Position numbers and translations under genes: made by a program. Of a stretch of 64,000 nt of DNA, positions 40,238 to 55,687 are shown piece by piece. The DNA is taken from the NCBI GenBank assembly GCA_027493445.1, contig JAOSKU010000001.1, forward strand, positions 2,686,822 through 2,750,821. Reading direction: 5' to 3'. Under the pieces are notes generated by a model, which was not told the origin of the DNA, searched no databases, and worked only from the letters and a program-made list of their open reading frames with translations. The DNA comes from Thermoleophilia bacterium (GTDB lineage Bacteria; Actinomycetota; Thermoleophilia; RBG-16-64-13). Each line of letters begins with the position of its first letter. Position 1 is the stretch's first letter.

Positions 40238-40840
40238 TCAGGGCCCCTTGTCCGGGCCGCCGGTCGCCTTGTCCGCATCCTCGAGGCTTTCCTTCCAGCT
40301 CAGGCTGCCCTCGCCCGGCTCGTTGCCTCTAATGCCGCCGTACACAGCCCGGCAAGTGGGGGAGCCCTTCTTGGCTTCGAGCAACACCTCGGAGCCTTCG
40401 GCGCAGTGCTCGGACCGGGCAAGAGCCTCCAGATAGGGAGCCGGTGCCAGGTACAAGGCCGCCAGATCCTGCCCCGCGTCGGGACGTATCTCGAGGAGCC
40501 AGGCCTCTCCGTACGGATCGTCGTCGAAGAGCTCGGGCTCGTCGACCACCATCTGGTTGACCGCTACCACCTCACCCGCAAGAGGCGAGATCACGTAGCG
40601 CACGGCCTTGAAGGTCTCGAAGAACACCAGATCGTCGCCCCGCACGAGCCGATCGCCCTCCTCCACGAAGAACTCCGTGGACTCGATGCCGCCCATGAGC
40701 AGCACGCCCACCTTGGTCACGCCGAGTCGCACCAGACCGTCGGCCTCTTGGAGCCAGAGCTCCTCCTCACCGTCGTAGAAACGGTCCTCCATGATCTCGA
40801 CCGTCTGGCCGTAGAAGCCCTCAAGATACAGCACGATCAC
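40238..40840 (-). CDS. GcvH-like lipoyl-carrier protein
   Basis: 200 residues. The core is a glycine-cleavage-H-like lipoyl domain: LVRLGVTKVGVLLMGGIEST, GDRLVRGDDLVFFETFKAVR and ISPLAGEVVAVNQ. The lysine in ETFKAV (about K78) sits at the lipoylation position (VESVKA in GcvH). The C-terminal 60 residues are unlike GcvH and include HCAEGSEVLLE and SPTCRAVYGG with two cysteines. No gcvT or gcvP is nearby. It overlaps the thioredoxin-like selenoprotein gene upstream by 20 bases. GcvH-like proteins outside glycine cleavage can serve as lipoamide redox carriers, for example beside Hdr-like sulfur systems. Here it may be reduced by the neighbouring thioredoxin-like proteins (inference). Confidence 0.78.
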   Translation of the reverse strand: MIVLYLEGFYGQTVEIMEDRFYDGEEELWLQEADGLVRLGVTKVGVLLMGGIESTEFFVEEGDRLVRGDDLVFFETFKAVRYVISPLAGEVVAVNQMVVDEPELFDDDPYGEAWLLEIRPDAGQDLAALYLAPAPYLEALARSEHCAEGSEVLLEAKKGSPTCRAVYGGIRGNEPGEGSLSWKESLEDADKATGGPDKGP

Positions 40841-41128
40841 CCCCGCGACCCGCCAGGCGCTCCGCCAGCACCCGGCGTAGCTCCTCTTGCTCGGGTATGC
40901 CCGGAAAGGCCAGCGTGCCCTCCACCAGGACGCAGGGCACGGGCAAGTGCTCGCCCGCCTCCCGGCGCAGATCACGGTACCGGGCGGCGCCCGCAGCCTC
41001 CTTCAAGATCACCACTTCGACCTCCACCCGCCCGTCGAACTCCCCGGCCACCTCCCTGGTGGCCTCGATGGCATAGAGTCAGGGTACGCAGTGCCCCCCT
41101 CGGAAACCACCTGTACAGGCAGCGTCAT
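40821..41128 (-). CDS. Thioredoxin-like protein with CVPU motif (candidate selenoprotein)
   Basis: ATG 41128 overlaps the stop of the upstream gene (ATGA). The frame begins MTLPVQVVSEGG. One base restored at the C-run 41094-41099 leads to HCVP-UGA-LYAIEATREVAGEF. UGA (41081-41079) therefore falls on the second Cys of a thioredoxin CxxC motif. The helix after it (YAIEATREVA), the strand VEVEVVILKE and cis-Pro region LPVPCVLVEGTLAFPG are thioredoxin-like. It ends LAGRGGDRAVS at 40821. About 102 residues. A 7-bp hairpin with an AGGGA loop lies 15-33 nt after the UGA. The weak points are the needed frame correction and the lack of a Cys homologue in this window. Confidence 0.68.
41046..41064 (-). 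promoter_or_regulatory. bSECIS-like hairpin of the CVPU protein
   Basis: GGCCACC-AGGGA-GGTGGCC, a perfect 7-bp stem located 15-33 nt after the UGA. The apical loop is about 22 nt from the UGA and contains GG, within the spacing known for bacterial SECIS elements. Confidence 0.55.
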
Positions 41129-41342
41129 GCCTGCACCCCTCCGGCCAGGGTGCGCACCAGGCGCCGGCGGCCATCAACCGCGCCCGCAGTGCATCAATCG
41201 TGAACCCCTGGTCGAGCACGCGGATCTCGGCCCAGTGCTTCTCCCACTCCATGTCCACCAACGCCACCTCCGAAGACTCCTCCAGCACCCGACGCACCGC
41301 CGGGCCGCACGTGACTCACCCGCGCAGCAAGAGCCGCTGCGT
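41125..41342 (-). CDS. HMA-like small metal-binding domain with UVTC motif (candidate selenoprotein)
   Basis: Reading through UGA (41318-41316) gives QRLLLRG-U-VTCGPAVRRVL, then EESSEVALVDMEWEKHW, AEIRVLDQGFTIDALRARL and MAAG. This matches the heavy-metal-associated fold: beta strand, CxxC, xxxV-xx-aL helix, two strands, and a closing helix ending in AG. UGA replaces the first Cys of CxxC. The upstream strand QRLLLRG is in the same frame, which argues for readthrough. The start is unresolved: GGAGAG is ideally placed for codon 41342, but that codon is ACG as given; TTG 41330 is an alternative. One base missing near 41136-41139 would end the gene at the TGA overlapping the next ATG. Repeat copy E lies just upstream. 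Confidence 0.55.
41287..41305 (-). promoter_or_regulatory. bSECIS-like hairpin of the HMA-like protein
   Basis: GCCCG pairs with CGGGT (one G-T pair) and can be extended inward by GCG/CGT around GTG. It is located 11-29 nt after the UGA. Confidence 0.45.
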
Positions 41343-41356
41343 CCCGAGCTCTCCAG

Positions 41357-41470
41357 GAGCTCGTTTCAAAACGAATCCTTGAGCGCCGGGCCGCACTGGG
41401 CGGCACGATGCGGTGTCCTCGCCCGCGCCCATCGCGACCTGACCGCGAAGCGTCATTCTGAAACGAGCTC
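41357..41470 (-). repeat. MITE-like repeat copy E with perfect terminal inverted repeats
   Basis: 114 bp bounded by GAGCTCGTTTCA and TGAAACGAGCTC, perfect 12-bp inverted repeats. The interior (CGCACTGGGCGGCACGATG, GCGAAGCGTCATTC) matches the family in reverse orientation, with the central hairpin deleted. One end shares a base with the stop codon of the adjacent DGC-domain gene; the other end lies 15 bp from the putative start of the HMA-like gene. Confidence 0.82.
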
Positions 41471-42090
41471 TAGCACTCGAACCCCTCCAGCTCCTCGAAC
41501 TCGCGCACCTCATCCTCCAGCTTGCGCCTGAGCTCGGGGTCCTTCTCCAACTTGAACGGGCACATGCCCGCGCAGTGGAAACAGCCCACATCGACCTCTT
41601 CGTACCCCATGGTCTCCTCGATGTTCAGCGACTCGTCGTGCAGACCCTGAGGGTTGGCCCGGGCTCCCTGGCGCTCGAAGAGGTAGTCGGGGTCCTCCAG
41701 CATGTTCTTCGCGATCAGGGCCGCCTTTTCGGCCAGGGCTTTGGCCAGCTTCTGGCCGGAGACCTCGGGGAAGGGCCGCCGCCGCCCGATGGCGTGCTTG
41801 GTCTCAGAGCGCACCCGGGGCGTGAACAGGCGGGCCGCCGGTCTGATGCCCACCAGGTTCAGCGCGTTCGAGCCGCAGCGGTGACCGCAGCCGTCGAGCA
41901 CGATCACCGGGTTGGCCTGCACCGCCTCGAGCTCCTCGGGGACCCCGGTTATGACCGGAGGGATCGAGACCAAGACCACCCGGCCGGCCAGCAGGTCCTC
42001 GTCGAGGATGTAACCCGCCAGCCGGGTCACCGACGAGACCGGGTCACCGATACCCCCGCAAGGGAAGATGGTGACTTTGTCGACCGCCAC
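41470..42090 (-). CDS. DGC-domain putative zinc-binding protein (copy 1)
   Basis: 206 residues; GTG start with GAGGAGGTGGG upstream. The N-terminus KVTIFPCGGIGDPVSSVTRL and the signature VIVLDGCGHRCGSNALN (DGC) define the family. The C-terminus adds VGCFHCAGMCPF and a final FEC, giving eight or more cysteines. It lies three bases from the stop of a paralogue. DGC proteins are predicted zinc or metal-cofactor binders of unknown role. Here they sit inside a selenoprotein and corrinoid-methyltransferase array, suggesting metal handling for it. Confidence 0.8.
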   Translation of the reverse strand: MAVDKVTIFPCGGIGDPVSSVTRLAGYILDEDLLAGRVVLVSIPPVITGVPEELEAVQANPVIVLDGCGHRCGSNALNLVGIRPAARLFTPRVRSETKHAIGRRRPFPEVSGQKLAKALAEKAALIAKNMLEDPDYLFERQGARANPQGLHDESLNIEETMGYEEVDVGCFHCAGMCPFKLEKDPELRRKLEDEVREFEELEGFEC

Positions 42091-42091
42091 G

Positions 42092-42652
42092 TCAGCCCAC
42101 CTCCTCGGGCAGCTCCGGCATCGTGACCGGCCGGTAGATGCCCGGCTCCAGCCTCACGAACTCCATAATGCCTTCCATGTTGGGAGCCGTGCGGAACCAC
42201 TTCTCGGGCTGCATCTTGAGCTCCGGGCGATGGAACTGGTAGGGGCTGCCTCGTTGCATCATCCCCCGGGCGATGCCGTGCACCCGCTCGGCCACCACCC
42301 GGGCGAAATCTTGAGTGACCCCCGAGGGAAAACGCCGGCTGCCTCGGCCAAGATCGAAGCCCTGGGCCTCCGCGTACTCGGGAAGCAGAAAACGGACGGC
42401 CGGGGTGATGCCCGCCAAATAGAGCAGGTTGGTGCCGCAGCTCCACTCGCAGCCGTCCAGGGCCAGGGAGGGGCTCTTCAAAACCATGAGCACGTCCTCC
42501 TCAACGCCCCGCAGAAAGGCGGGAGCGCAGGAGATCAGGGTCTTCTCGGGAAGGAGCTCCTCGGCCACGGCATAGGTGGCCAGCCGGGCAACGGTGGCCC
42601 CCACTCTGGTGATGCCGCCACAGGCGTGCATGCAGATCCGTCGGACAGCCAT
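42092..42652 (-). CDS. DGC-domain putative zinc-binding protein (copy 2)
   Basis: 186 residues. It starts MAVRRICMHACGGITRVGAT with the same N-terminal CGGI motif as its paralogue. The DGC signature is LALDGCEWSCGTNLLYLAG. The C-terminal half differs: PYQFHRPELKMQPEKWFRT, no FHCAGMC motif. The paralogues probably bind similar metal sites with different partners. A strong hairpin (42722-42749) lies upstream, so this gene may start a new transcript or be read through from the thioredoxin-like gene. Confidence 0.78.
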   Translation of the reverse strand: MAVRRICMHACGGITRVGATVARLATYAVAEELLPEKTLISCAPAFLRGVEEDVLMVLKSPSLALDGCEWSCGTNLLYLAGITPAVRFLLPEYAEAQGFDLGRGSRRFPSGVTQDFARVVAERVHGIARGMMQRGSPYQFHRPELKMQPEKWFRTAPNMEGIMEFVRLEPGIYRPVTMPELPEEVG

Positions 42653-42721
42653 CGGCGTCGTCTACTCCTACGTGTCCGTCGAGAGACGCGCGGTGTCCCG
42701 CGCGTTCGGTCTCATGTCCGT

Positions 42722-42749
42722 GGGGGCGGCCGCCAAAGCGGCCGCCCCC
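42722..42749 (-). terminator. Strong hairpin between the UxxC protein and DGC genes
   Basis: Perfect 12-bp stem, GGGGGCGGCCGC paired with GCGGCCGCCCCC around CAAA. It lies 25 bp after the stop of the upstream gene on the minus strand. There is no long T-run; a terminator or mRNA-stability element. Confidence 0.65.
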
Positions 42750-42773
42750 GAACGGTTCCGAGAAGGGTACGCT

Positions 42774-43115
42774 CTACTCGTACTCCTCCATGGCTTTCTT
42801 TAGAGCATGCGAAAGGATGTCCTTCTGATTGCTGGTCCTGGCTGCCGCAATGAGGCTGTCGTACAGCTCGTCCAGCGTGGGGATGATGCTTTCGTAGAGG
42901 CATGCTTCGTTGATACAGAGAGTGGGCAGCACCCGTCCCTTGCGGGCCATGAACATCTGAATGCCCTCCGGGTTCTTGATCGACCACTCTTTGTACTCGA
43001 TGAAGTCCTTTACGTCGTCCGGCAAGCTATTGAGTACATCGACCATGTACCCGCATGCCGGTCACTGAAGGGAGTCGAGCGTCAGCACCTCGACGAGGAT
43101 CCTGTCGTCCGCCAT
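42774..43115 (-). CDS. Thioredoxin-like protein with UPAC motif (candidate selenoprotein)
   Basis: Intact frame with no shift needed. ATG 43115 (GGGGG nine bases upstream) gives MADDRILVEVLTLDSLQ, then UGA (43064-43062), then PACGYMVDVLNSL. UGA thus replaces the first Cys of a thioredoxin CxxC at residue 18, after a typical beta strand and before a typical helix. Then come FIEYKEWSIKNPEGIQMFM, the cis-Pro strand VLPTLCINEACLYESIIP and a helical end. 113 residues with Sec. Downstream of the UGA is an 8-bp hairpin (GTACAT-GGTCG-ATGTAC core) enclosed by CCGGCA/TGCCGG. The gene follows the Sec-containing UroD-like gene directly. It would be a thiol or selenol reductant for that system (inference). 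Confidence 0.82.
43032..43052 (-). promoter_or_regulatory. bSECIS-like hairpin of the UPAC protein
   Basis: Stem GGGTACAT / ATGTACTC (one G-T pair) with loop GGTCG. The loop is 18-22 nt after the UGA. It is enclosed by a second 6-bp stem, CCGGCA with TGCCGG. The GGT in the loop resembles the SelB-recognition loop of fdhF. Confidence 0.65.
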
Positions 43116-43121
43116 GTTCGA

Positions 43122-44197
43122 TCACCCCCGACCTTGGTCGGGCTGCGCTTGGGCTGCAGCGGCGGGAAAGCGACCTCGGGATAGTGCGCGTAGTACGTCT
43201 CGTACCAGGTCTTGGCTTCGAGTACCTTGTCCACGTTCTCAACCGGAACGTCGTAGGGCATGTCTCAGCCAGGCGAGAATGTGTAGCCGATCTTGCCGCC
43301 GGCGGCCAGGCTGACGATCGCGTCTTCACGCGGATCGACGATGCCCAGCGACAGCGCCAGGGTCAGCTTCAGGTTCCCGCCGAAACCGCGGCCGTACTTC
43401 AGCGCGCCGTCACGGACGTAGTTCATGTTGAGCTGCTCGTCCACACAGACGCAGCTCGCGCCGGTGTACATCATGTTCTCGACGATCTTGGTGGCGTCGC
43501 CGCAGATGTACAGAGCGCTCACCTTGCCGGCCTTGTGGATAGCATCCAGGCCGGGCTGGCACGCCGGGATCACGAACTTGTCGTACGTCTCCGGGCGGAC
43601 CTGGCTGCCCACCGGCTCGACAAGCGCGACGATGTCGCAACCGATCTCCTCGGCATAGATGCGGGCCGCCTCGGCCGAGGCCTTGGCTGCGAACGCCAGG
43701 ATCTCCTGAGCCAGCTCAGGCTTCTTCACCATATCGGTGAAGATCTTGGCCCCCCTCAGGTGCGAGGCCAGTGTCAACGGACCGCACGCCAGACCGATCA
43801 GAGCCACGTCACCCAGCTCGGCCTTGGCCTTCTTGCCCGCCTCGATGATCACCGGCCAGCGCCCGTCGTTCGGGCCCGGGATCTTGAGGCCGGCCTCGGT
43901 CAGCGGCTTGTCGGCCAGCGGGTGCGCGATGACCGTAGGCGGGTTGTCGTCGAACCACTTGGCCTCGATCCCCATCGACATCGCCTCGATGGCGAGGTCG
44001 AACACCAGAGGAATGCCGTCGGCCTTGTAGCGCTCGGCCGCGTTCACGACCGCCTTCGCCAATAGGTTGGGGTCCTGCAAGACCTTCGTGGCGGTCTCGC
44101 CGATCAAGTATGCGCCATGTACGCCTACGTACGGTACCCAGGGCACCACCGGAGTGTATTTCCCCTGGTAGGCGTCGAGCACTGCCTGCTTACCCAT
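43122..44197 (-). CDS. UroD/MtaA-like corrinoid methyltransferase with Sec at the zinc-ligand position (candidate selenoprotein)
   Basis: TIM-barrel protein of the uroporphyrinogen-decarboxylase/MtaA family, transferring methyl groups to or from corrinoids via a thiol-zinc site. ATG 44197 has AAAGGAGG. Motifs: LGDVALIGLACGPLTLASHL, GCDIVALVEPVGSQ, SALYICGDATKIV. The frame meets UGA at 43267-43265 within FSPG-U-DMPYDVPVENVDKV. It then continues coherently (LEAKTWYETYYAHYP, FPPLQPKRSP) to a stop at 43122 if one base is restored at C43125-43129, or at 43082 as given. The paralogue at 51.2 kb reads PGCDLWPDTNVENL at the same place, so UGA aligns with its Cys. The usual His of HxC is Tyr here (YIC). 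About 358 residues, Sec at 311. Confidence 0.85.
43233..43251 (-). promoter_or_regulatory. bSECIS-like hairpin of the UroD-like protein
   Basis: ACGTTC-CGGTTGA-GAACGT, a perfect 6-bp stem with a 7-nt loop containing GGTT, 14-32 nt after the UGA. Confidence 0.6.
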
Positions 44198-44355
44198 CGT
44201 CCTCCTTTCGCGTGACAGTCCTAGGAGACCAGGAAGCAACCCTCTTCATACTTCAGCGGCAACACCCCCTTTCAGCAAGGACGCAGGCCGGCGGTTGCAG
44301 GCCTCGACTCGTCCCGTCCGTGCGGTCCCGACAGCGTACCCCGGGTCCGCGTGTT

Positions 44356-45123
44356 TCACCCCTCACGTACGGCCAACCTGGCCGTCGCGCATGCGACCGC
44401 GCAGCGTCCGCAGACGCGGCGGCCGGTGGCGCGCTCGTTCTCATCGAGGAATTTGCGGCAGCGTTCGATGTCCACGATCCTTGCCATCCCGTCCTCGCGA
44501 CACCAGACCCGCCCGGAGATGGCTCCCGCGGGGCAGGCAGCCACGCAGCGACCGCACTCGCCGCACTCGCTGACCACAGCCGGAGTCGAGGTCCTGAGGG
44601 GCGCGTTGGTCAACATGGTGGCCCAGCTCACGTGGGGGCCGTACACAGGATGGTTCAGCAGGCCGTGCCTCCCCACCCAGCCCAGGCCCGCGCAGGTGGC
44701 AGCAGCCTTGTGCGAGAAGCGTCTGGCCACGAGCGAAGTGAACGGGGAGTCCATGGGGTCGCATTCCGGGGGGCAGCCGAAGTATCGATACCCCTGGGCG
44801 CGGAACAAGCTGCTCAGCCGGCGCAAGCCGGTCTCCAGCTTTGCCTGCCCTACCGCGTCGCGATGGTCGCAGAGCTCGCGCTCGAGGCCCTGCGCGGACA
44901 GCGCGCCGTCTTCCAGGAGCGCTCTCATGGCCGGGTGGGCGACCCCCAGCGAGATAGCCACCGGGAGATGTCCGAAGCCCGGAGGAAGAGCGGCCCGCAC
45001 GTCGCCGAACCCAACGATGTCCACGCCCGCCTCGCGCGCGATGCGGCGCACGAGGTGCTCTATAACGTCGAGCGCCTCGTTCTTCGGTGTGTGCGCTGTG
45101 ACGTGACTGGCGCCGCCAAGCAT
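44356..45123 (-). CDS. QueG-like protein with two 4Fe-4S cluster motifs
   Basis: 255 residues. The N-terminal domain resembles the cobalamin-binding part of epoxyqueuosine reductase and reductive-dehalogenase-like proteins (LVRRIAREAGVDIVGFGDV, AAATCAGLGWVGRHGLL). The C-terminal ferredoxin domain has CGECGRCVAACPAGAIS and CGRCAVACA. It ends LAVREG. True QueG is longer and has HEAT repeats; this short form is of unknown substrate. It lies between the Sec-containing GTPase and the Sec-containing methyltransferase. It could be a low-potential reductase that keeps the corrinoid or selenol site reduced (inference). Confidence 0.8.
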   Translation of the reverse strand: MLGGASHVTAHTPKNEALDVIEHLVRRIAREAGVDIVGFGDVRAALPPGFGHLPVAISLGVAHPAMRALLEDGALSAQGLERELCDHRDAVGQAKLETGLRRLSSLFRAQGYRYFGCPPECDPMDSPFTSLVARRFSHKAAATCAGLGWVGRHGLLNHPVYGPHVSWATMLTNAPLRTSTPAVVSECGECGRCVAACPAGAISGRVWCREDGMARIVDIERCRKFLDENERATGRRVCGRCAVACATARLAVREG

Positions 45124-45125
45124 GA

Positions 45126-45788
45126 TCAGGACTCTCTTTGCCGTGATGGGACCCTGACAGGGTCTCTGATCAAGCCGCCGATATTCGTGCCTTCTCCGAG
45201 GAGAAGATCCACGAGGGAGGCGACCCCTTCTTCTGAACGGAGGTCAACCCGGCGAAGCGCCACATGGGGAGCCGCCTCTGCGACGCGAGACCCTAGAGCG
45301 TCCACCTTGTCGGGATCGGCGTCGGCGGTCTTCGTGATGACCACCAGGTCGGACTGCTCCAGCTGCTGCGCGGTGATGTGCTCGACATGAGCAGCGAAGG
45401 GCGCCTCTGGATTGGAGCCGTCCAGCAGCAGCACGATCGGACCCGCCTCCACGTCTGCGTCCCTACCGGCCACTGTGATGGTGTTGTGCAGCTCGAAAGG
45501 AATCACGATGCCCGAGGGCTCGGCGAAGAGCACATCGAGCTGCTCCTGGCGGGCCATGTACTTGAGCGCTTTCGTGAAGCTCCCGGCTTCCGAGCACCCG
45601 ATTCAACCGCCCCCGATCACGCGCACCGGATGGCTCCGCAGGATCTCGTCAGTCTCCAGGGAAACGGCACCCGAGTCGTTCACCACCACGCCGCTGCGAA
45701 GCCCCCGACCAGCAGCCTCTCTCAGCAGCGTAGCGATCAACGTGCTCTTGCCCGCACCCAGCAGGCCGATCACCGAGACGACCTTCAT
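45126..45788 (-). CDS. COG0523-like metallochaperone GTPase with UIGC motif (candidate selenoprotein)
   Basis: Intact frame. ATG 45788 overlaps the upstream stop (ATGA). Walker A is VIGLLGAGKSTLIATLL and switch region GVVVNDSGAVSLETDE. Then RVIGGG-UGA-IGCSEAGSFTKAL: UGA (45605-45603) is codon 62. The paralogue at 46.3 kb reads DIGGGCICCEVASTFARTV, so UGA falls exactly on the first Cys of the metal-binding CxCC motif. Later motifs are VLFAEPSGIVIPFEL and the NKxD-like ITKTADADPDKV. 220 residues with Sec. The G3E/COG0523 family delivers metals (Ni, Zn, Co) to client proteins; a selenolate ligand would soften the site. It ends just before the QueG-like gene. Confidence 0.85.
45579..45595 (-). 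promoter_or_regulatory. bSECIS-like hairpin of the UIGC GTPase
   Basis: GCTCGG-AAG-CC with outer GCTC/GAGC pairing and a two-G bulge, 8-24 nt after the UGA. It is the least regular of the five hairpins; an alternative register pairs CTCGG with CCGGG. Confidence 0.4.
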
Positions 45789-46270
45789 GCCCCGGGCTCC
45801 TTCTCCAGCTGCTGCTCGAGTTGCTTCATGTACTCCTCGTCCGAGGCGAAATCGTAGCGGTCGAAGTAGAGATGCTCTTTTTCCTTCACCACCTGGAAGC
45901 CATGTCTCTCGGCGAGCCCGTGAGCCGCCTTCAGGGTCGAATCCTTGACCTCCTCCTCGGTTATGCCCTGCACGATGGAGTTGATGGCCACGAAGAGGTC
46001 CTTGGCCGGACCCCGCAGCGAGCCGTGCAAGGCGGCCGGGTGGTTGATGCCGATGGTGTCGGCCTTGAGCGTACCCTCCGAGCAAACCAGATGCGACTTG
46101 ATATGGCCAATGAAGCGGGCCCCGCGGGCCACGCACTCGACGGCGATGGCGTCCATCATCTCCCGCAGGAGAGCCCCGATCTCGGCGGCTTCGACCACCC
46201 GGTCGCGGTGCAGTTTCACAGCCACGCCGTAGCCGCTCACCCCGTGATCGAGATAGCAGGCCTCATCCAT
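45785..46270 (-). CDS. Hypothetical protein between two COG0523 GTPases
   Basis: 161 residues, soluble, acidic C-terminus. Segments include GVSGYGVAVKLHRDRVVEA, FIGHIKSHLVCSEGTLKAD, DLFVAINSIVQGITEEEV and HGFQVVKEKEHLYFDRYDF. Only two cysteines. Six bases separate it from the CxCC GTPase upstream, and it overlaps the UIGC GTPase by four. Family not recognised. Its fixed place between the two GTPases suggests a partner or client of metal delivery. Confidence 0.65.
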   Translation of the reverse strand: MDEACYLDHGVSGYGVAVKLHRDRVVEAAEIGALLREMMDAIAVECVARGARFIGHIKSHLVCSEGTLKADTIGINHPAALHGSLRGPAKDLFVAINSIVQGITEEEVKDSTLKAAHGLAERHGFQVVKEKEHLYFDRYDFASDEEYMKQLEQQLEKEPGA

Positions 46271-46276
46271 TGATGC

Positions 46277-46888
46277 TCACAGCCCTTCCACCACGGCAGC
46301 CAGAAGTTGATCGAAACCCTCGCCCGTCACCGAAGACACAGGGATGAAGGTGGCCCCAGGGATGACCTCCCCGGCGGCCGCAGCGGCCCGTCGCACTTCT
46401 TCGGCCGAAACGGCGTCAACCTTGGACACGGCCACGATGTCGGCGTCCGCCAGCTGGTTGGTCACCAGGCGGCCCATGAGCTCCATGTCCAGGAGCTCGT
46501 CGGGGCGGGTGGCGTCGAAGAGCACGATGACCGGACCGATCTCCACGGCCACGTCGCGACCGCCCATCTCCGCCGCCGCCTTCACCTGACGGGGGATGGC
46601 CACACCGGTCGGCTCCACAAGCACCAGATCGGGGGCGAAGTCGCGCGCCAGCTGCTTGACGGTCCTGGCGAATGTGGAGGCCACCTCGCAACAGATGCAT
46701 CCGCCGCCGATGTCCTTGACCTTCATGCCCGACTCCTCCATGACCCTGCCGTCTACCGGAATCTCACCGATCTCGTTGACGACCAGGGCCACCCTCAAGC
46801 CTTTGCGCTCCGAAAGCAGGGTGGAGAGCCGCAGAAGGAGCGTAGTCTTACCGCTCCCCAAGAATCCGGCGATCTGGACGATCCTCAT
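46277..46888 (-). CDS. COG0523/CobW-like metallochaperone GTPase, CxCC type
   Basis: 203 residues. P-loop VQIAGFLGSGKTTLLLRLS, LVVNEIGEIPVDGRVME, metal motif IGGGCICCEV, VLVEPTGVAIPRQVK and guanine-specificity loop VAVSKVDAVS. AGGGGG lies upstream of ATG 46888. It is shorter than full CobW/YjiA because the C-terminal CobW_C domain is absent. That makes it closer to HypB/UreG-like or minimal G3E proteins. It provides the Cys-type reference for the Sec-containing paralogue 0.5 kb downstream and probably loads a metal into a protein of the methyl-transfer system. Confidence 0.88.
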   Translation of the reverse strand: MRIVQIAGFLGSGKTTLLLRLSTLLSERKGLRVALVVNEIGEIPVDGRVMEESGMKVKDIGGGCICCEVASTFARTVKQLARDFAPDLVLVEPTGVAIPRQVKAAAEMGGRDVAVEIGPVIVLFDATRPDELLDMELMGRLVTNQLADADIVAVSKVDAVSAEEVRRAAAAAGEVIPGATFIPVSSVTGEGFDQLLAAVVEGL

Positions 46889-46896
46889 GGTCCCCC

Positions 46897-49505
46897 TCAG
46901 ACTGTCAGATTGCGATAGATGCGTGGCAGCTTGGTGGGCAGGTGACCCACGTTCTGGATCACGGTGTACCGATTGGTGCCGAAGAGGTCTTCAAGATAGT
47001 CCTGGCCCTTCGGATCCACGGTGATGCAAAACGCGCTCACACCTTGCCGGCGGGCCTCCGCCAGGGCCATCTTCGTGTCTTCGAGTGCGTAGCGCATGTC
47101 GCCGTATGCCATGTCGTACGGCCTTCCGTCGCTCAGCAGCACGAGCAACTTGGCGCCCGAGGTTTCGCGCCTCAGATGATCGGTCGCGTGCCGCAGAGCG
47201 GCCCCCAGACGGGTGTACTCCAGAGGCTGGATCCCCCGATCCGGCCGGCCACCGCCTCGCCGAACGCCTCGTCGAAGTCCTTGATCGTGTACAGATCGAC
47301 CATCCTCCGGCCGTGACTGGAGAACCCCATGATGGCGAACCGGTCGTCCAGCTGCCCGATCGCTTCGGAGAGAAGAACGAGACCCTCCTTCTCGACGTCG
47401 ATCACACGGCGGGAGCCTTCCACCGGCTGGTCGGTCGAGTCGCTCATGTCCAACAGGAAGAGGACGGCGACGTCCCGCTGCTTCTTGTCGCGCCGGATGA
47501 AGATCTTGTCGCTCATGGGCGCCCCGGCCTGGCGGTCCACGATGGCCTCAGTCAGCGCGTCGAGGTCCAGCTCGTCCCCGTCCTGCTGACGGAAGAAACG
47601 ACGCATCCGGTCGGGTCGCAGGCGCTCGAACTGACGCCTGATCAGCAGTACCTCCCCCCGGAACCGCTCGACGGTCTCGCCGACGAAGGCCGGATCACCG
47701 GGAGGGAGTTGCCGGCAGCGCACCGTACACCAGCGCGTGCGATAATCCGCCAGCTCATAGTTCCACTCATCATACGTGAAAGTATCCCAGGCCGCATCCC
47801 CTTCTTCGCCATCCTCCTCATCATCCTCCAGCACAAGCAGCTCCGCTTCCTGGCGATGGTCGCGCAGACTGATCTCCAGGCCTTCGATGATCTCGCTGGG
47901 ATGCAGGCTGTCGGGTACGTCGACCGGCGTGCCGGGGGCAGGACCGGCACCGGCGTCGGTGCCCGAAGAGGTCATCGACGCCAGCTTCAGGCCCAAGTAC
48001 AGGTGATCGTGGTACGGAGGGTAGGGCACTTCCACCACTTCGGCCCCCGCGACGTTCTCCCGGGCCCAGTCGCCCGCGCCTTCAGCTTGTAGGAGCCTGC
48101 CCAGGGCGGCGGCCACCCGGGTCGCGTCCGCCGGACCAGCCTCGGGAAAGGCAAGGGGGGCCACCGCCGACTCGACCGCCGCCGCCAGATCGGGATCGGC
48201 CAGAACGCAGACTCCGAACGGGAAGGCGACCAGATGCGCGCGGAGAGAGGCCGTCGTGAGAGGCACGCCCGAGCGACCGGAGTTCACGTCGAGACCACCA
48301 TAGGTTTCACGCACGATCAGCTCGGCGTCGCGGCGCAGCCCCGGCAAGGTCCGGAGGAGGACCGCGTCGATGCGGAAGTCCTCCGCCACCCCGGCAACGA
48401 ACCGGTCAAGGGCGGTAGGGGCGGCCTCCTCGGCTGCGATCGTCCGACCCCTGACGAGAAAACGCCCCAAGCCGTCACTGGTGTAACTCCCGAAGCGTTG
48501 GTGCGACATGGCGTGCAGCGCAACCAACTTGTACAGGGAAAGGGGCGAAGCGCCCGCACAGCCCAGGGAGGGACGTATGTACAGCTTCTGACCATCGCTG
48601 AACGCGGGCACGTCGGGAGGAACGCTCGCCGGGTCCAGCAGGTCGAACATCGAGTGCAACGAGGCCGGGCGGCCGAGGAAGGCCTCGAGCAGCAGGCCCA
48701 CACGGGGTCTAAAAGCGGCGAACGAGGTTTCCCTGCAGAGCACCTCCACCGCCTCCTGGCTCCGCTTCGACCCATAGGACATGTAGAGGACCAGGTCCTC
48801 CTCATTCCTGGCTACCCGCAGGCCCAGATCGACCCACTCCACGAGCTGGGGCACGCGCATGCTGGCTAGGAGCGAAGGCAAAGCCCTGTAGAGGCCCTTG
48901 GCCGCATGGCGCGAGCGTTCCGCGACCTGGGCCCCCAGAGAGGCCAGCACCGGGAGGTCGTCCGCATTCAGCCAGTGAGCCGCTTTGGCCGTCGACTCCA
49001 GGAAACCGCGGGAAGCCCACCACTCCTTGTGAGCCAGCTCCATGGCCCCTTCGTGCCACACACGCAAGTAGCCCATGTCGCGCCGGCTGAGGACGGCCGG
49101 TGTATAGTCCATGAAGGTCGCGGCCAGGTCCACATCGCGCAGCAGGTCCAGGGCGCGATCGGTGACCTCGCGGAAGTCACCCACGTCGATATCCGCCCCC
49201 ACTGCGCGGCACAGAGCGGCGTATGCTCCCGTCAGGCGGGCCGAGCGGCTGGTGAGGTGTAGAAGCGCGGAGTTAGCCGTCTCCTCCAGCTCGGGGCGCC
49301 GGCCCACGATGGCGAAGGCTTCCACCAAGACCATCAACAGGCTGCGCTTGTCGCGCAGCCGCTGACCGGAGAGGTGTGCAGCGATCTCTGTCCAGAGCAG
49401 CCGCTCCCGAGCGGGCAGTTCGGCCAGCTCCCTTGCGTGGGCGCGGGCAAACGACGCGGCCTCGCCTTCCAGTGCCTGCATCGCGTCTTTCAGGTCGGCG
49501 CTCAC
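46897..49505 (-). CDS. norD: NorD-like VWA-domain activator protein, frameshifted as read
   Basis: About 870 residues. The large helical N-terminal half ([38 protein letters not shown]) is followed by the catalytic-metal-activation VWA domain. Its MIDAS is in [19 protein letters not shown], with [14 protein letters not shown] and [13 protein letters not shown] matching NorD. The frame breaks at C47233-47237. One base restores [20 protein letters not shown]. The GTG start overlaps norQ. NorD/NorQ pairs mature the iron site of NO reductase, but VWA/MoxR pairs also activate other metalloenzymes. Here the pair sits between corrinoid-methyltransferase and metallochaperone genes, so its client may be in this cluster rather than NorBC. 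Confidence 0.86.
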
Positions 49506-50335
49506 GCCTCGAAGACCGCCTCCACCAGCTCGCGCAGGGTCGCCAGCATGTCGCCGTCGTCGGTAAGGGGCTTGGCCATGGCCACCTCGGCTGCCCGGCG
49601 AGGGGGGACACCCTGGCCGATCAGCCGCGCGGCATAGACGAGGAGTCGGGTCGAGACTCCTTCCTCCAGTCCGTGGTCGCGCAGGTTGCGGATCATGGTT
49701 CCCAATTCGACGAGCCTCACGGCGATCGAGTCGTCCACTGCGGTCTCGCGCATGACGATCTCGGCTTCGGCGGACTTGTCCAGGTAGTTGAAGTCCAGGG
49801 CGAGGAAGCGCTGGCGGGTCGACTGCTTGAGGTCTTTCAGAATGCTCTGGTAGCCCGGATTGAAGCTCACCACGAGCATGAAATCATCGTGGGCCTCGAC
49901 GATGTGGCCCTTCTTCTCGATAGGCAGGATGCGCCGGTCGTCTCCAAGGGGATGAATGACCACGGTGGTGTCCTTGCGGGCTTCCACGAGCTCGTCCAGG
50001 TAGCAGATGGCCCCGTGCTTCACGGCTACCGTGAGGGGGCCGTCCACCCAGCGGGTCTCGTTGCCCACGAAGAGATAGCGCCCCACAAGGTCACTCGCGG
50101 TGAGGTCCTCGTGACAGGCTACCGTCACCAGAGGCAGACCCAGACGATAGGCCATGTACTGGAGGAAACGCGTCTTGCCACTGCCGGTGGGGCCCTTCAG
50201 CATGACCGGAAGCTTGAGCTGGTGAGCTCGGATGAAGAGCTCGACCTCATCCCCCGCCGGTCGATAGTACGGCTCCTCCAGGACCCGGTAGTCCTCGATG
50301 GAGAACTCCTCGCCCCCGTGTCCCGCGGGTGTCAT
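49502..50335 (-). CDS. norQ: NorQ/CbbQ-type MoxR AAA+ ATPase
   Basis: 277 residues from ATG 50335 (GGGGG nine bases upstream). Walker A is [20 protein letters not shown] and Walker [16 protein letters not shown]. Sensor 1 is in [13 protein letters not shown], and [14 protein letters not shown] is the arginine-finger region typical of NorQ/CbbQ. It forms a hexameric ring that works with the VWA partner encoded immediately downstream to remodel a target metalloenzyme. It follows a strong terminator hairpin, so it may start a separate transcript from the corrinoid-protein gene. Confidence 0.9.
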
Positions 50336-50401
50336 CAAGTCATTCCCCCTTGCGTGAATCAGCAAAGATACGGCGAGGTCGCGGTAAGACCGCACCAAGC
50401 G

Positions 50402-50435
50402 CTGGGGGGCCGCGCCCATGGGCGCGGCCCCCCAG
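50402..50435 (-). terminator. Strong hairpin after the corrinoid-protein gene
   Basis: Perfect 16-bp stem, CTGGGGGGCCGCGCCC paired with GGGCGCGGCCCCCCAG around AT. It starts 13 bp after the stop of the corrinoid protein. This is likely termination or partial attenuation between methyltransferase and norQD genes. Confidence 0.72.
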
Positions 50436-50448
50436 ATGCGTCCGACTC

Positions 50449-51114
50449 CTACATGCGCCTGAGGGCGCCCACCATCTTGATGGCTTCCGAGACGGCGTTA
50501 GAAGCGTTCTCGGAGTAGCCGTCGGCCCCGAACATGTCGGCGATCTCACCGGTCACCGGGGCGCCGCCCAGCATGATCATGACGTTGGGGTTCTTCTCCT
50601 TCAGCTTCACGATGGCCTTCTTCATGCCCATCATGGTGGTGGTCATCATGGCCGAGAGGGCCACGATGTCGGAGTTGGTGGAGATCTGCTTCTCCACGAA
50701 CTCGTCGATGGGCACGTCGGCCCCTAGGTCGTGCACGGTGAAGCCGGCCACCTCGAACATCATCTTGACCAGGTTCTTGCCGATGTCGTGCACGTCGCCT
50801 TCCACCACGCCGATCACCACTTCGCCCTTGACCGCTTCCCGGCCCTCCATGTTCACGTGGGGGCGCAGGATGTCAAGGCCGGCGTAAAGAGCGTCGGCGC
50901 ACATGAGGACTTCGGGGACGAAGTACTCCTGGGAGTCGAAGAGCTCGCCCACCACCTCCATGCCGGCGGCCAGGCCGTCCATGATGCCCTCGTAGGCGTC
51001 GAAGCCTTCGGCCAGGACGGCCTGGGCGGCGGTGGTGACCCGGTCCTCTTCGTACTCGATGACGCCTTCTTTGAGCTCCTTGAAGAGCTCCTGCTTGCGC
51101 TCGTCAGATCCCAT
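50449..51114 (-). CDS. Methyltransferase corrinoid protein (MtaC/MtbC-like)
   Basis: 221 residues; AAGGAGG before ATG 51114. The N-terminal helical cap ([35 protein letters not shown]) is followed by the Rossmann B12 domain. Its cobalt-ligating signature is [16 protein letters not shown], and loops [13 protein letters not shown] and [18 protein letters not shown] complete the site. It carries the methyl group as methyl-Co(III) between the UroD/MtrH-type methyltransferases encoded upstream. The size is standard for MtaC-type proteins. Confidence 0.93.
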
Positions 51115-51248
51115 TGTTCCTCCTTGTTGCTCTCGGCCCGGAGCCCGCCCGGGCGACTCTCCTCCCGACCACCCGTCGGTTGGGGTGGGGCGCTCCCTAC
51201 GACGCCCCGTCCTTTCGTCTACGTCCTCGCGGACGGTAGCTCCACCGG

Positions 51249-52277
51249 CTAAGCCTTCCGGCGCGGCTCGGTGCCCTCCACGGCCTTGACCCATGCCCGC
51301 AGGTTCTCGACGTTCGTATCAGGCCACAAGTCGCACCCGGGCCACACAGCATCGACTCCCGCCTCGGCGGCATCGCACACAGCCGCTGCGATCATGTCGG
51401 GCTCGCCCTGGGTCAGCACGTCCCAAGGGTGCAGGTTGCCGAGGAGCACCACGTCGTCGCCGATCTTCTCCCGGCTGGCCTTGATGTCGTTTTTCTGGTC
51501 CACCGAGACCACCGGGTTCATCTCGGCCATGTCCTGAACGATCATGTTGGTATCACCGCAGATGTGGTAGACCTTGGGGACGTCGATGGAGGCGAGGATC
51601 TCTTCCGAGAACTTCCGGATCATCTTCTTGAAGCTGCGCGGCGAGAGCACGTCGGAGGTGGCGCCCATCTCCCGCAGGCTGATGAAATCGGCGCCGGCGT
51701 CGACGTACGCCCTGGCCTCGCCGATCAGGAATTGGGTGAGCTTCTCGAGGATCCCTTCAGCCTTGGCCGGCTCCTTGAAGGTCATCTTGAGGATCTCGTT
51801 CAGGTCCATGCTCTGCCCGGCCAGGGTGAAGGGTCCCAATACCCAGGACCCGACGGCCACATCGGGACCCACCAGCTCCTTCGTTTTCCTGATGGCCTCG
51901 CAGACCAGGGGCACCCGTCCGGCGGTCGCGATGTTCTCCGGCATCTTGATGTCGTCGGCCACGTGAACGTACTTGTCCTTCAAGGTTGGGTAGAGGATGT
52001 CTTCGCTGTGGGGGTACGTGTTCAGCCTGGCCCCCAGAGCCTCGGCGGCCACACCCATGTCGAAGGGCACGATCGCGGCGGCCGTGCCCACCAGCTCGAC
52101 GGTGGCGGCGGCCGCCGCGGCCATCTCACCGGCGTCCAGGTGCACGTGGGCAAAGCGCAGGCCGTGTTTCTTCAGACCTTCAACGATGACGCTTCCGAAG
52201 CCGGAGAAGGCCGGTACGACGTCGACCGGTTTCCCGGCGAGGATGTTGAGCGCGCGCTCTTTGGGAGTCATTGCCAT
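51249..52277 (-). CDS. UroD/MtaA-like corrinoid methyltransferase, Cys type
   Basis: 342 residues. KERALNILAGKPVDVVPAF starts the barrel. The zinc ligands expected of MtaA-type enzymes are present: HxC in KVYHICGDTNMIV and a third Cys in VWPGCDLWPDTNVENL. GSWVLGPFTLAGQSMDLNEI is a family segment. GGAG lies before ATG 52277. It probably demethylates or methylates a thiol or other small acceptor via the adjacent corrinoid protein. With the MtrH-like and activator genes it resembles the core of halomethane (cmu/mec) and methyl-compound cassettes. It gives the internal Cys reference for the Sec-containing paralogue at 43-44 kb. Confidence 0.88.
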   Translation of the reverse strand: MAMTPKERALNILAGKPVDVVPAFSGFGSVIVEGLKKHGLRFAHVHLDAGEMAAAAAATVELVGTAAAIVPFDMGVAAEALGARLNTYPHSEDILYPTLKDKYVHVADDIKMPENIATAGRVPLVCEAIRKTKELVGPDVAVGSWVLGPFTLAGQSMDLNEILKMTFKEPAKAEGILEKLTQFLIGEARAYVDAGADFISLREMGATSDVLSPRSFKKMIRKFSEEILASIDVPKVYHICGDTNMIVQDMAEMNPVVSVDQKNDIKASREKIGDDVVLLGNLHPWDVLTQGEPDMIAAAVCDAAEAGVDAVWPGCDLWPDTNVENLRAWVKAVEGTEPRRKA

Positions 52278-52350: not shown

Positions 52351-53310
52351 CTAGGCCTCTCCTTTAAGGGTCTTGACGAAGTCGGGGAACAGCTTGTACA
52401 CGGGTGTGGATTCGTTCCCGGTCAGCTGGCCCGTCTCCGCGTAGCGCATGGTGGACACCATCGCGTGGGCCGCGGCCACCGCCGGGAACACGTGATCGTT
52501 GCCCCACATCGGCCCGCTGAAGATGAAGTCACCCCACAGGGCTACGGTGGCGGCGTGGGTGCCGGCGTCCAGACCGATAAAGGCTTTCTCACCCCAGGTG
52601 TCGAGGTTGTTCTTCCATACAGCCTTCTGCCACATGTAGGTACCGTTCGCCGAAGCCGCGCCCGCGGGAAGGCCATACTTCTCCTTCACCAGCCGGTTGG
52701 ACAGCGCGCAGATGCCGGTGGAGGGCAGATTCATGACCGAAGTGTCGACGATGATGGTCTGGAAATCACCCTTCTCGAGGCTCTGCATCATGGTGTCCAG
52801 CGAGCTCAACCGGCCGCTGGGGAGCTGGTCGGCCATGTCCATGACCACAGTCACCACGTGCTTCACACCGAGCGCCTTGATCTGCTCGACCTCGGCCGGC
52901 ACATCGGGGCTCCAGACGGTCACGGAGTTGTAGAGCAGTCGATCCTGCAGGCCCTGGCTCGCCACGTACTTCGTAGCCTCGATGCGGGGCTCGAGGTTCC
53001 ACATGTCGATGGCGAAAGGCAGATCGGTGGTCCCGACGTAGAAGTCGATGTAATTCTTCATCTCATCGCCGGAGTTGGCCACCATGGCCACGATGGCGGG
53101 CATGCCGGTGAGCTGGCTGAGCTCTTCCAGGCGCTTGATCTGGTCGCCGGCCATTTGCCTGTTGAACGTGCGCTCCCGGCGGCTCTCCACGCAGGGATCG
53201 CCCTTCTGGAAAAGCGAGGGGATGATCAGGGGCGGGTTCTCACCCGGCTGCCCGCCTACGCGGACGTTCCCGATGGTGAAAACCTTCTGCTCAGTGTCGA
53301 AGACGAACAT
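52351..53310 (-). CDS. MtrH-like methyl-tetrahydrofolate/pterin:corrinoid methyltransferase
   Basis: 319 residues; AGGAGGGAG before ATG 53310. N-terminal FDTEQKVFTIGNVRVGGQPG and IIPSLFQKGDPCVESRRE are close to MtrH/CmuB-type proteins. VAMVANSGDEMKNYIDFYV, DTSVMNLPSTGICALS and GLDAGTHAATVALWGDFI follow. It would move the methyl group from the corrinoid protein to tetrahydrofolate (or the reverse), linking the cassette to the Wood-Ljungdahl or other C1 pathway. It is flanked by the UroD-like and activator genes with short spacers. Confidence 0.87.
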   Translation of the reverse strand: MFVFDTEQKVFTIGNVRVGGQPGENPPLIIPSLFQKGDPCVESRRERTFNRQMAGDQIKRLEELSQLTGMPAIVAMVANSGDEMKNYIDFYVGTTDLPFAIDMWNLEPRIEATKYVASQGLQDRLLYNSVTVWSPDVPAEVEQIKALGVKHVVTVVMDMADQLPSGRLSSLDTMMQSLEKGDFQTIIVDTSVMNLPSTGICALSNRLVKEKYGLPAGAASANGTYMWQKAVWKNNLDTWGEKAFIGLDAGTHAATVALWGDFIFSGPMWGNDHVFPAVAAAHAMVSTMRYAETGQLTGNESTPVYKLFPDFVKTLKGEA

Positions 53311-53321
53311 GTGTCTCCCTC

Positions 53322-55304
53322 CTAATCCTTGACGAGATCGCCGAGGGCCTCTTCCGCCAGCACCGCATGCAGGTTCGGGAACTTGTCCTTCATATGCGGC
53401 AGGTGCATGGCATACATGAACTCCTTCTCAAAGGCGGGCTCCACCGAAAGCTCGACGTACTCCACCTTGCGGGCCCACTCGTCCGCTTCCAGTCGCTTGT
53501 TGGCGTCGAGCAAGGCCATGCGCGCCCCGTCGCCGGCCGCGTTCCCCACGGCGTAGGCTTTGGTCACGGGGACATCGGGGAACATCCCGATGACCAGGGA
53601 CTCCTCCCGGTCGATGAACGAGCCGAAAGCGCCGGCCAGCACCACGCGATCCAGGCTTTCGTAGCCCAGCTTCTGCATCATGATCTTGGCGCCCGCGTAC
53701 ATGGCGCCCTTGGCCAGCTGCACCGCGCGTACGTCTTTGATGGTCATGGTGACGTCGCGGCCGATGGAGGTCTCGTTGGCCCAGGCCAGAACGTACTCAT
53801 CGCCGTCCTCACCCTTGCGCACGCGATCGATCTCGGTCCCCTTCACGAACTTGCCGGTCTTGTCGATGATGCCGGCCTTGAAAAGCTCGGCCACGCCGTC
53901 GATGATGCCCGAGCCGCAGATGCCTTTGGTGCCGATGGTCTCCGGGTCCATTTCGTCGGACCATTGCTCCTTGCCGATCACCCGGTAGCGGGGCTCCTTG
54001 GTCTCGGGATTGATGTAGATCTTCTCAATGGCGCCCGGAGCCGCCCGCATCCCGTACTTGATGTGGGCCCCTTCCAGGGCCGGGCCAGTAGCGCACGAGG
54101 AGCTGATCAGCTTCTCGCGGTTACCCATGATGAGCTCGCCGTTGGTGCCGATGTCGATGATCAGCTGCCGGTCATCCTTGTTGTAGGGCTCCTCGGCAAT
54201 CAGCACGCCCACGTTGTCGGCGCCCACAAAGCCGGCTTCGTTCGGCAGCACGAAGACGTTTGCCCCCCGGCAGAACTTCAGCCCCAGGTCGCGCGCCTTG
54301 ATATTGATGGAGTGGTGCAGCGCAGGAGCGTACGGGGCCAACCCTAGGTGCTCAGGATAGATACCCAGGAAGCAGTGGTGCATGGCCGTGTTGAACACGA
54401 TGGCCAGCTCGAGGATGTCCTCGTGGGTAAAGCCCACCGCCTCGCAGATACGGGCGGCAATGGTGTTCAGGCCCTCGATGATGGCGTCTTGTAGCTTGTG
54501 AATGCCGTCCTCGTGAGACATGGCGTAGGTGATACGGCTCATGACGTCCTCACCGTACGGCACCTGCGGGTTCATCATCGAGTCATAGTTGAGGACCTCA
54601 CCGGTGGCAAGATCGCAGAGATACGCGGCCACAGAGGTGGTGCCCACGTCGACGGCCAGTCCGATGCTCCGCTCGACCTTGCCTGGGGCGATGCGGACGA
54701 TCTCGGGAGCGGGGCCCCCCGTCCAGATCGAAACCGAAACCTTCCAACCCGCGGCCCGCAGGGTGTCGGGCATGCCCAGCAGCACCTTGTAGTCCAGGAT
54801 GGGAGCGTCCAGACCGTGCTGCTCCTTCAGGGCGTTGCAGACGCGCTCGTAGTCGCCCAGCGGATCGTGCAGGGTGGGTGGCAGCATCTCGATGTAGTAG
54901 GTGCGGACCGAGGGGTTGACATTGATCTTGCGGTCGGTGACGGCCTTGCGAACGACCTGACCGCCGGCGCGGGCCTCCTCGGGGACGAAGACCACGAGAT
55001 CGCCGTGGATCTTGGCCACGCACGCCAGCCGATACCCCTGGTCCTTGCGTTCATCGGTGAAGAACTTGGCCTCCACCGGACGCCATTGGGTGACATGCTC
55101 GCGGGAGGATTCCACCCCGTAGCGCTCGAAAAACCCGTCCTCGATGCGGATCTTGCACTTACCGCAGGTGCGCTTCTCGCCGCAGATGGCCTCGATCTCG
55201 ACCCCGAGCTCCCGGCTGGCGTCAAGGATGGACTTGCCCTCCTCGACCTGCCCCCGCCGGCCTGAGGGCTGGAAGATCACGGTGTGCATCTTCTGTTCGC
55301 TCAA
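53322..55304 (-). CDS. ASKHA-domain reductive activator of corrinoid proteins (RACo/RamA-like, 2Fe-2S)
   Basis: 660 residues. The N-terminal ferredoxin domain has AICGEKRTCGKCKI and RLACVAKI, the four Cys ligands of a 2Fe-2S cluster. A linker is followed by the actin-like ATPase domain: IGLAVDVGTTSVAAYLCDL (phosphate 1), QLIIDIGTNGELIMGN (phosphate 2) and VVLAGAFGSFIDREESLVIG (adenosine). It uses ATP to reduce inactive Co(II) corrinoid to Co(I). TTG 55304, with GGAGAG seven bases upstream, is preferred; ATG 55289 is the alternative. It is the first gene of the array downstream of a regulated promoter. Confidence 0.92.
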   Translation of the reverse strand: MSEQKMHTVIFQPSGRRGQVEEGKSILDASRELGVEIEAICGEKRTCGKCKIRIEDGFFERYGVESSREHVTQWRPVEAKFFTDERKDQGYRLACVAKIHGDLVVFVPEEARAGGQVVRKAVTDRKINVNPSVRTYYIEMLPPTLHDPLGDYERVCNALKEQHGLDAPILDYKVLLGMPDTLRAAGWKVSVSIWTGGPAPEIVRIAPGKVERSIGLAVDVGTTSVAAYLCDLATGEVLNYDSMMNPQVPYGEDVMSRITYAMSHEDGIHKLQDAIIEGLNTIAARICEAVGFTHEDILELAIVFNTAMHHCFLGIYPEHLGLAPYAPALHHSINIKARDLGLKFCRGANVFVLPNEAGFVGADNVGVLIAEEPYNKDDRQLIIDIGTNGELIMGNREKLISSSCATGPALEGAHIKYGMRAAPGAIEKIYINPETKEPRYRVIGKEQWSDEMDPETIGTKGICGSGIIDGVAELFKAGIIDKTGKFVKGTEIDRVRKGEDGDEYVLAWANETSIGRDVTMTIKDVRAVQLAKGAMYAGAKIMMQKLGYESLDRVVLAGAFGSFIDREESLVIGMFPDVPVTKAYAVGNAAGDGARMALLDANKRLEADEWARKVEYVELSVEPAFEKEFMYAMHLPHMKDKFPNLHAVLAEEALGDLVKD

Positions 55305-55687
55305 CAGTCTCCTCTCCTTTGTTCGCGTCCGTGCCGGCCCAGATGCCGTCCCTACAGCCGTCGATGATCCTCGGCGCATCCTGGTGCTTGGGCCCCTTCG
55401 AGCTTGACGATGACCTTCCGGCCATCCCGACACAACGGGTCGACTTCAACGACAAAAGCTCCCCGAGAACAAGTTGCCTGCCCCTTGCCTCGAAGAGCTA
55501 CGGTACTTCCAGCCTCTCCCGAGTTTTCTGGCTCGCGCCCTACGTCGGGCGCCTACAGTGGCGGGACCGCGCCGGATTCCGACCGGCTTACCTCGTGACG
55601 CTTCACGTCGCGGAGAGGCGAAATCGTTGTTCCAGGGCCCCAGGCCCCTGGTCTTTCCGTCGTAGAAGCTCCCCCTTCGGTCATGTA

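Follow-up and report, generated by a model that had tools for sequence, protein, structure and literature searches.

The DNA described here is a window of 64 000 nucleotides from a Thermoleophilia bacterium (contig JAOSKU010000001.1; positions are counted from the first letter of the window), and the subject is five genes on its minus strand that each contain an in-frame TGA codon and together form the distal portion of a corrinoid cluster. In the direction of transcription, they encode a CobW-related protein with the motif GGGUIGC (45126–45788, TGA at 45605–45603; U denotes selenocysteine, Sec), a putative MtaA/UroD-like methyltransferase with the motif SPGU (43082–44197, TGA at 43267–43265; Sec-MtaA-like protein), the thioredoxin-like UPAC protein (42774–43115, TGA at 43064–43062), the HMA/MerP-like UVTC protein (41136–41339, TGA at 41318–41316; the gene ends are not fixed in this assembly) and the CVPU protein, which is thioredoxin-like of the HUIPC type (40821–41128, TGA at 41081–41079). 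A preliminary description of the locus had proposed that the protein is coherent on either side of each of these codons. All five are present and in frame, with coding sequence on both sides, and the similarity to the loci of relatives likewise extends to both sides. From sequence, it is near certain that all five are read as Sec.

The TGA codons are conserved among relatives. In the CobW-like genes TGA is kept in all five loci compared (the window, L032, L033, L037 and L038), and in the UroD/MtaA-like, UPAC, UVTC and CVPU genes it is kept in six of six each (the window and L032–L036), with similarity before and after the codon in every set; L036 carries an extra UPCC copy. The 4.70 Mb genome to which the window belongs (G000) had been expected to decode UGA as Sec and to contain selA, selB, selC and selD. 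All four were found above their cut-offs: tRNA-Sec (selC) at 74 bits, SelA at 562.9 bits, SelB at 322.7 bits for its best stretch and SelD at 395.6 bits, the last with an in-frame TGA of its own (G000:C1:1135976-1136899). Among 18 genomes of the order, the UroD/MtaA-like gene occurs in six, with TGA in all six, and selA occurs in 15, including these six. Among 396 genomes drawn from the phylum, the CobW-Sec gene was matched at E values of up to 1e-25 in three genomes, the window's included; the carriers G006 and G007 are not among these matches, so that the draw probably left both out.

The Sec-MtaA-like protein has the broadest distribution. A scan of GTDB genomes with the family alignment gave 158 relatives, the best 80 of which were examined as loci; at the Sec column the codon is TGA in 75, TGT in two and TGC in two, with one locus not covered, and the resulting figure of 75/79 is therefore silent on more distant relatives. 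Five of these loci, L040–L043 and L060, duplicate the contigs L032, L033, L034, L036 and L035, respectively, and no count mixes the two sets; some others come from a single genome (e.g. L084 and L096). The TGA-bearing loci span Actinomycetota, Bacillota and Desulfobacterota (Deltaproteobacteria), with the sulfate reducers Desulfofundulus australicus, D. thermobenzoicus and Desulfatitalea alkaliphila among the cultured carriers, and selA is present in 47 of the 49 genomes that carry the 50 loci (of 80) examined for it. When the best 120 database homologues were aligned, 92 ended at (A/S)PG, immediately before the Sec column, which is the mark of gene callers stopping at TGA; the column holds Cys in 20, Trp in four, Ser in two and Tyr in two. 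A tree of 99 rows requires nine changes of the Sec label, at least seven of them forced by well supported branches (mean of 20 for shuffled labels), which indicates that Sec and non-Sec forms exchange repeatedly; the second label, 'Cys', should be read as 'not Sec', as three of its 22 rows have Ser (P0145 and P0225) or Tyr (P0239).

A hairpin had also been claimed after each UGA, and consensus folding does give one stem-loop per gene, with the loop within nucleotides 18–26 after the UGA (18–22 for CobW and UPAC, about 18–22 for UVTC, 21–24 for the UroD-like gene and 22–26 for CVPU) and with GG or GU in the loops. This spacing probably resembles that of E. coli fdhF. The common hairpin was also recovered in 27 of 29 single-sequence folds; the UroD-like set used for folding includes one stray row from L032. 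Consensus energies were better than those of independent synonymous recodings for all five genes (p = 0.002–0.004), and a stricter null that keeps the relatedness of the rows gave p = 0.045, 0.21, 0.041, 0.064 and 0.051. The stability of the window hairpins ranks between 0.3% and 25% among 4359 codons, which is weak evidence. Codon choice in the UroD-like gene was analysed over 76 Sec rows (75 loci and the window). At nucleotides 16–18 after the UGA all 74 Val codons are GTT, compared with 9% of the Val codons in the 50 codons upstream; downstream of the UGA, Pro is encoded by CCG in 65/76 (background 17%) and Glu by GAA in 60/75 (35%). These choices build a hairpin GTTCC...GGAAC with its loop at nucleotides 21–23, in which pairs 17–27, 18–26 and 19–25 are present in 76/76 rows, pair 20–24 in 89% and pair 16–28 in 80%; the codon-bias p values overstate the case because the rows are related. 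Two of the four Cys versions of the gene (L095 and L104) lack the GTT. Support for a hairpin resembling a selenocysteine insertion sequence (SECIS) is thus strong for the UroD-like family, with its 76 rows, and suggestive for the other four genes, on sequence grounds.

The possibility that the UGA codons are stops, pseudogene lesions, assembly errors or codons for another amino acid was considered against these data. Two apparent insertion or deletion errors in the assembly lend it some substance: compared with its relatives, the CVPU gene lacks one base of a G run near 41095, and the N-terminus encoded from the ATG at 41128 is consequently in another frame in this assembly, and a frame switch near 47235 in a VWA-type gene upstream (near 47.2 kb) is consistent with the same kind of error. 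Both affect gene frames and not the UGA codons. The Trp found at the Sec column in four of the 120 database proteins, perhaps translated with another code, could also be taken in its favor. A sequencing error, for which the preliminary description had suggested looking for TGC or TGT by resequencing, is rejected because TGA stands at the same codon in 75/79 loci, in independent assemblies from three phyla and with conserved protein beyond it; stop codons and other amino acids are likewise rejected on the conservation of TGA and the codon bias of the hairpin, and the genome has the Sec machinery. We regard this explanation as scarcely credible. A single fused UVTC–CVPU protein was also considered and is ruled out by a TAG between the two in L035 and L036, such that the codons at 41318 and 41081 belong to separate genes. 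A dispersed palindromic repeat (41345–41472; 99 matches in its own genome, including the query place) lies between the second DGC gene and UVTC and may have displaced the UVTC start codon.

The Sec-MtaA-like protein has the UroD/MtaA fold according to its Pfam match (PF01208, 160 bits), its alignment to 4ay7 and its predicted model. MtaA of Methanosarcina mazei (4ay7, E = 7e-21) is its only relative of solved structure detected by sequence, and the model, with a mean predicted local distance difference test (pLDDT) score of 84.6, also has MtaA as its best PDB fold match (template-modeling score, TM, of 0.85 by target). In the alignment LYICGD corresponds to LHICGN of MtaA and SPGU to APGC. The Sec, present in 76 of 80 members (window included), therefore falls, in the alignment, on the final Cys of the metal motif HxC...C, the residues of which we take to be the zinc ligands of MtaA. 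The His of HxC is replaced by Phe, Tyr or Leu in 80/80 members (79 loci and the window), such that the HxC...C motif as aligned here is incomplete; the cluster's other MtaA-like protein, encoded 7 kb upstream, retains this His. The score against TIGR01463 (117.5 bits) lies below the curated 235.4, and NCBIfam release 20 gave no dedicated match. The accessible part of a 2026 inventory of 119 prokaryotic selenoprotein families (PMC13188914) has no UroD/MtaA entry, and literature searches, judged mostly from bibliographic entries, returned no publication recognized as describing the family.

Of the 77 loci that extend far enough to show it, 67 have a UPAC gene no more than 400 nucleotides downstream of the Sec-MtaA-like gene (69/80 overall), and 63/80 loci encode one or more of RACo, MtrH, corrinoid protein and MtaA. 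This frequent thioredoxin-like neighbor, the loss of the metal-motif His in every member and a thioredoxin-reductase-like gene in L081 would all fit a redox enzyme resembling glycine reductase, in which a selenenylsulfide between Sec311 and Cys232 is reduced by the thioredoxin-like protein; the fold and the cluster are nevertheless those of corrinoid methyl transfer, and we consider such an enzyme improbable. The neighbors in L081 (Desulfatitalea) are a DUF2284 protein, which is weak kin of known metal-binding selenoproteins, CobW, the thioredoxin-reductase-like protein and an ArsE-type thioredoxin-like protein, and the substrate could not be read from the neighbors in this locus or in L056, L057 and L061 (Desulfofundulus). 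Aquaporin-like and BtuF-like frames, named by eye, lie near the gene in L057 and L061. Additional small frames that are thioredoxin-like and contain an in-frame UGA (DFRQUAACV and LTDQUASG/TTDQUASG types) occur downstream of it in L055, L056, L057, L061 and L065, and similar UxAC frames occur in several Desulfobacterota loci.

The four smaller Sec proteins differ in how closely they approach existing models. The CobW-related protein scores 127.4 bits against NF041053 (127 bits when rounded; 130.6 and 101.4 bits for relatives), below the cut-off of 180. UPAC matches NF047660 weakly (23.9 bits; 29 bits in L035), gave no Pfam family and yielded no sequence relative when the PDB was searched; it has 192 homologues and, of the 120 listed, 94 have CAAC, 25 start after the Sec column and one has Phe. 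CVPU scores 87.2 bits against NF047660 (92 and 83.2 bits for relatives), below the cut-off of 105, and its motif is HCVPU rather than HUxPC. Among the 80 loci, CVPU-type proteins have HUxPC in 13 and HCxPC in nine, while HCxPU was found in three by one count and five by another; CxxC versions occur in other loci, Bacillota among them, and the neighboring thioredoxin motif occurs as UxxC, CxxC and CxxU. UVTC, for which the Pfam scan found no family, has only five database homologues, all of which start after the Sec column, as expected if the UGA is taken for a stop. The AlphaFold2 model of its homologue in L032 (pLDDT of 85) has the βαββαβ fold of HMA/MerP proteins, matching MerP (1osd, TM of 0.76; the best PDB match) and HMA domains. 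By sequence this homologue reaches 14.1 bits against Pfam HMA (gathering threshold 24.8) and 21.4 bits against NF041115 (cut-off 95); four of 11 members match HMA at E values of up to 1, the best being 0.031, and neither the homologues of L034 and L035 nor the window frame matches NF041115. The proposed check for Cys at the UGA column thus came out positive for four genes, with Cys in 20/120 UroD-like and 94/120 UPAC homologues, in the HCxPC forms of the CVPU type and in a CobW paralogue with GGGCICC; among the database homologues of UVTC none with Cys turned up.

The remainder of the cluster, all on the minus strand, begins with a cobalamin riboswitch (RF00174, 55500–55632, 36 bits against a gathering threshold of 31.5), which also precedes RACo in L036 (31.7 bits). 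The proximal genes encode, in order, a RACo-type corrinoid activator (53322–55433, with the true start probably near 55300; PF14574/PF17651; NF040756 at 496.6 bits, cut-off 800), an MtrH-like candidate methyl-corrinoid:tetrahydrofolate methyltransferase (methyltransferase II, MT II; 52351–53310; NF002142 at 302.5 bits, above the cut-off of 287), the MtaA-like methyltransferase that retains HxC...C (51249–52277; NF004889 at 233 bits, cut-off 244; E = 7.6e-45 to 4ay7), a corrinoid protein of the MtbC/MtaC type (50449–51294; TIGR02370 at 203 bits, cut-off 215; PF02310/PF02607), a CbbQ/NorQ AAA ATPase (49502–50419; PF08406, PF07728) and its partner (46897–49505, as open reading frames 47172–49505 and 46897–47148), which has no Pfam match, is conserved in L032, L033, L037 and L038, and is presumably VWA-type. 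Corrinoid protein, activator and MT II are thus all present together, as in a corrinoid methyl-transfer operon. The distal part comprises a CobW GTPase with GGGCICC (46277–46888; PF02492, 122 bits), the CobW-Sec gene, a QueG/RDH-like Fe–S protein (44356–45123; TIGR00276 at 52.5 bits and TIGR02486 at 45.7 bits, both below cut-off), the Sec-MtaA-like and UPAC genes, two DGC-domain proteins (42092–42652 and 41470–42090; PF08859 at 36.5 and 40.2 bits), UVTC, CVPU and a GcvH-related protein (40238–40840; NF045810 at 115.8 bits, cut-off 150; PF01597). Between the two CobW genes sits a conserved 161-residue protein of no known family (45785–46270; no Pfam match), with 74–75% identity in L032, L033, L037 and L038; it adjoins CobW in L097 too.

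When stretches of five relatives were searched with the cluster proteins (tblastn), their gene order matched that of the window. L032 and L033 include the corrinoid protein, CbbQ and everything from there to GcvH. L035 and L036 extend from RACo to GcvH and lack the CbbQ–VWA–CobW block, which lies elsewhere in those genomes (L038 and L037), and L034, a short contig, covers the corrinoid protein to GcvH, also without the block. The five genes had been proposed to form one functional array; a shared cluster is supported, while the CobW-Sec gene stands apart in G016 and G017, where it is located elsewhere with CbbQ, VWA, CobW and the 161-residue gene.

In operons of this kind, a methyl group is transferred through the corrinoid protein, which RACo reactivates, and is passed by MtrH to tetrahydrofolate. 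We favor, with a probability of about two in three, a reading in which the five UGA codons encode Sec within such a corrinoid methyl-transfer cluster and in which the Sec-MtaA-like protein, as one of its methyltransferases, would bind or demethylate a methylated soft-element substrate with the help of UPAC and of proteins that handle metals. In place of the His–Cys–Cys zinc site of MtaA, this protein would have a soft site of two ligands, Sec311 and Cys232, suited to a thioether, a methyl-selenide or a methyl-metalloid. The methyl group could then pass to the corrinoid protein and via MtrH to tetrahydrofolate and the Wood–Ljungdahl pathway; AcsB/CdhC is encoded in the genome. UPAC, encoded next door, may keep Sec311 and Cys232 reduced, and the CobW-Sec, HMA/MerP-like and DGC proteins may handle the metal or metalloid. 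We infer the substrate, direction and catalytic role of the Sec-MtaA-like protein from sequence.

The chief alternative accepts Sec and takes the cluster for an ordinary methylotrophic O-, N- or halide demethylase or methanol system, in which the Sec proteins only mature, metallate or protect the corrinoid methyltransferases. CbbQ/VWA and CobW are indeed of chelatase and chaperone types. PMC2770081 reports CobW (COG0523) genes beside mtaA/mtaB/mtaC and ramM, and PMC11206085 describes a Desulfofundulus methanol operon with a CobW-type P47K protein, an Fe–S protein, a protein named 'uroporphyrinogen decarboxylase', which may or may not belong to the Sec family, and corrinoid and MtrH-type proteins. 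According to PMC5770442, methanol together with cobalt and B12 raises the levels of proteins from the D. kuznetsovii operon Desku_0050-60. An active-site Sec in a methyltransferase-like protein nevertheless suggests catalysis, and neither MtaB nor MttB was found among the 30 window reading frames scanned with NCBIfam, a scan that began after the first 27.8 kb. We judge this alternative unlikely, and clearly less so than the redox enzyme.

Several observations weigh against the favored reading. Methyl transfer could in fact be the work of the MtaA encoded in the same cluster, with the Sec protein as an accessory. Residues 312–314 of the model, directly after Sec311, have pLDDT below 50, and 10 of the 77 loci lack UPAC by the distance used, with one lying close by in L042, L079 and L112. 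Among the seven related loci searched, only L036 has a cobalamin riboswitch above cut-off, and such riboswitches usually repress on adenosylcobalamin, which is odd for an operon that uses B12. As to the hairpins, two of the 29 single folds lack the common stem-loop (CobW in L037, UVTC in L032); the p value of 0.21 under the stricter null belongs to the Sec-MtaA-like gene, for which the minimum free energy after the UGA is also weak (mean z of −0.84 versus −0.33 upstream, p = 0.015) and the window hairpin ranks no higher than the top 25% of codons by stability; and two of the four Cys versions (L051 and L053) retain the GTT.

If the favored reading is true, the corrinoid methyltransferases of the MtaA/UroD type gain a family that uses Sec, the TGA of which is found in three phyla and at least 75 loci. 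On sequence evidence, a widespread family of selenium enzymes has likely been cut short in the databases; as most of the listed homologues end near residue 310, surveys of methylotrophy overlook the final ∼30 residues together with the residue of the site. The repeated exchange of Sec and non-Sec forms, together with the UxxC, CxxC and CxxU motifs of the neighboring thioredoxin, makes the use of selenium directly testable by comparison. More tentatively, and at rather less than even odds, these proteins may be a widespread class of Sec-dependent corrinoid methyltransferases missed by gene callers, in which the Sec/Cys pair, seated where the zinc site used to be, demethylates a methylated selenide, sulfide or metalloid and is recharged by the thioredoxin-like partner, with the five-Sec operon described here serving it.

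Several of these proteins can be set beside known systems. The Sec-MtaA-like protein resembles MtaA/MtbA (4ay7) in its fold, in alignment over most of its length and in its corrinoid cluster context; it differs in the Sec at the last metal-motif Cys, in the replaced His and in not reaching curated cut-offs. The preliminary description had held three or four of the families to be non-standard selenoproteins. This stands for the UroD/MtaA-like and UPAC Sec forms, which are without an existing NCBIfam selenoprotein model, and not for the others, as models exist for CobW-related (NF041053), HUIPC thioredoxin-like (NF047660) and UxxU metal-binding (NF041115) proteins, families that PMC13188914 also includes. 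By sequence, CobW-Sec and the HUIPC-type thioredoxin each represent a variant of an established selenoprotein family: the former shares with NF041053 a P-loop GTPase, UxxC after GGG and a near full-length profile match, with all scores below 180, and CVPU matches NF047660 across nearly its whole length, below cut-off and with Sec second in the pair (HCVPU) instead of first (HUIPC). UVTC is linked to NF041115 and HMA (MerP) by the weak profile match of the L032 homologue and the predicted MerP fold, and differs in having one Sec (UxxC). At the level of the cluster, the type 1 mlp and SdmABC methyl-selenide systems, as described in PMC10418091 and PMC11097638, lack a tetrahydrofolate methyltransferase, whereas an MtrH-like one is present here, and the parts consulted do not mention an MtaA-like protein that itself bears Sec. 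They share with the present cluster several MtaA-like proteins, a corrinoid protein, a reductive activase and a link to selenium, and are its nearest functional kin.

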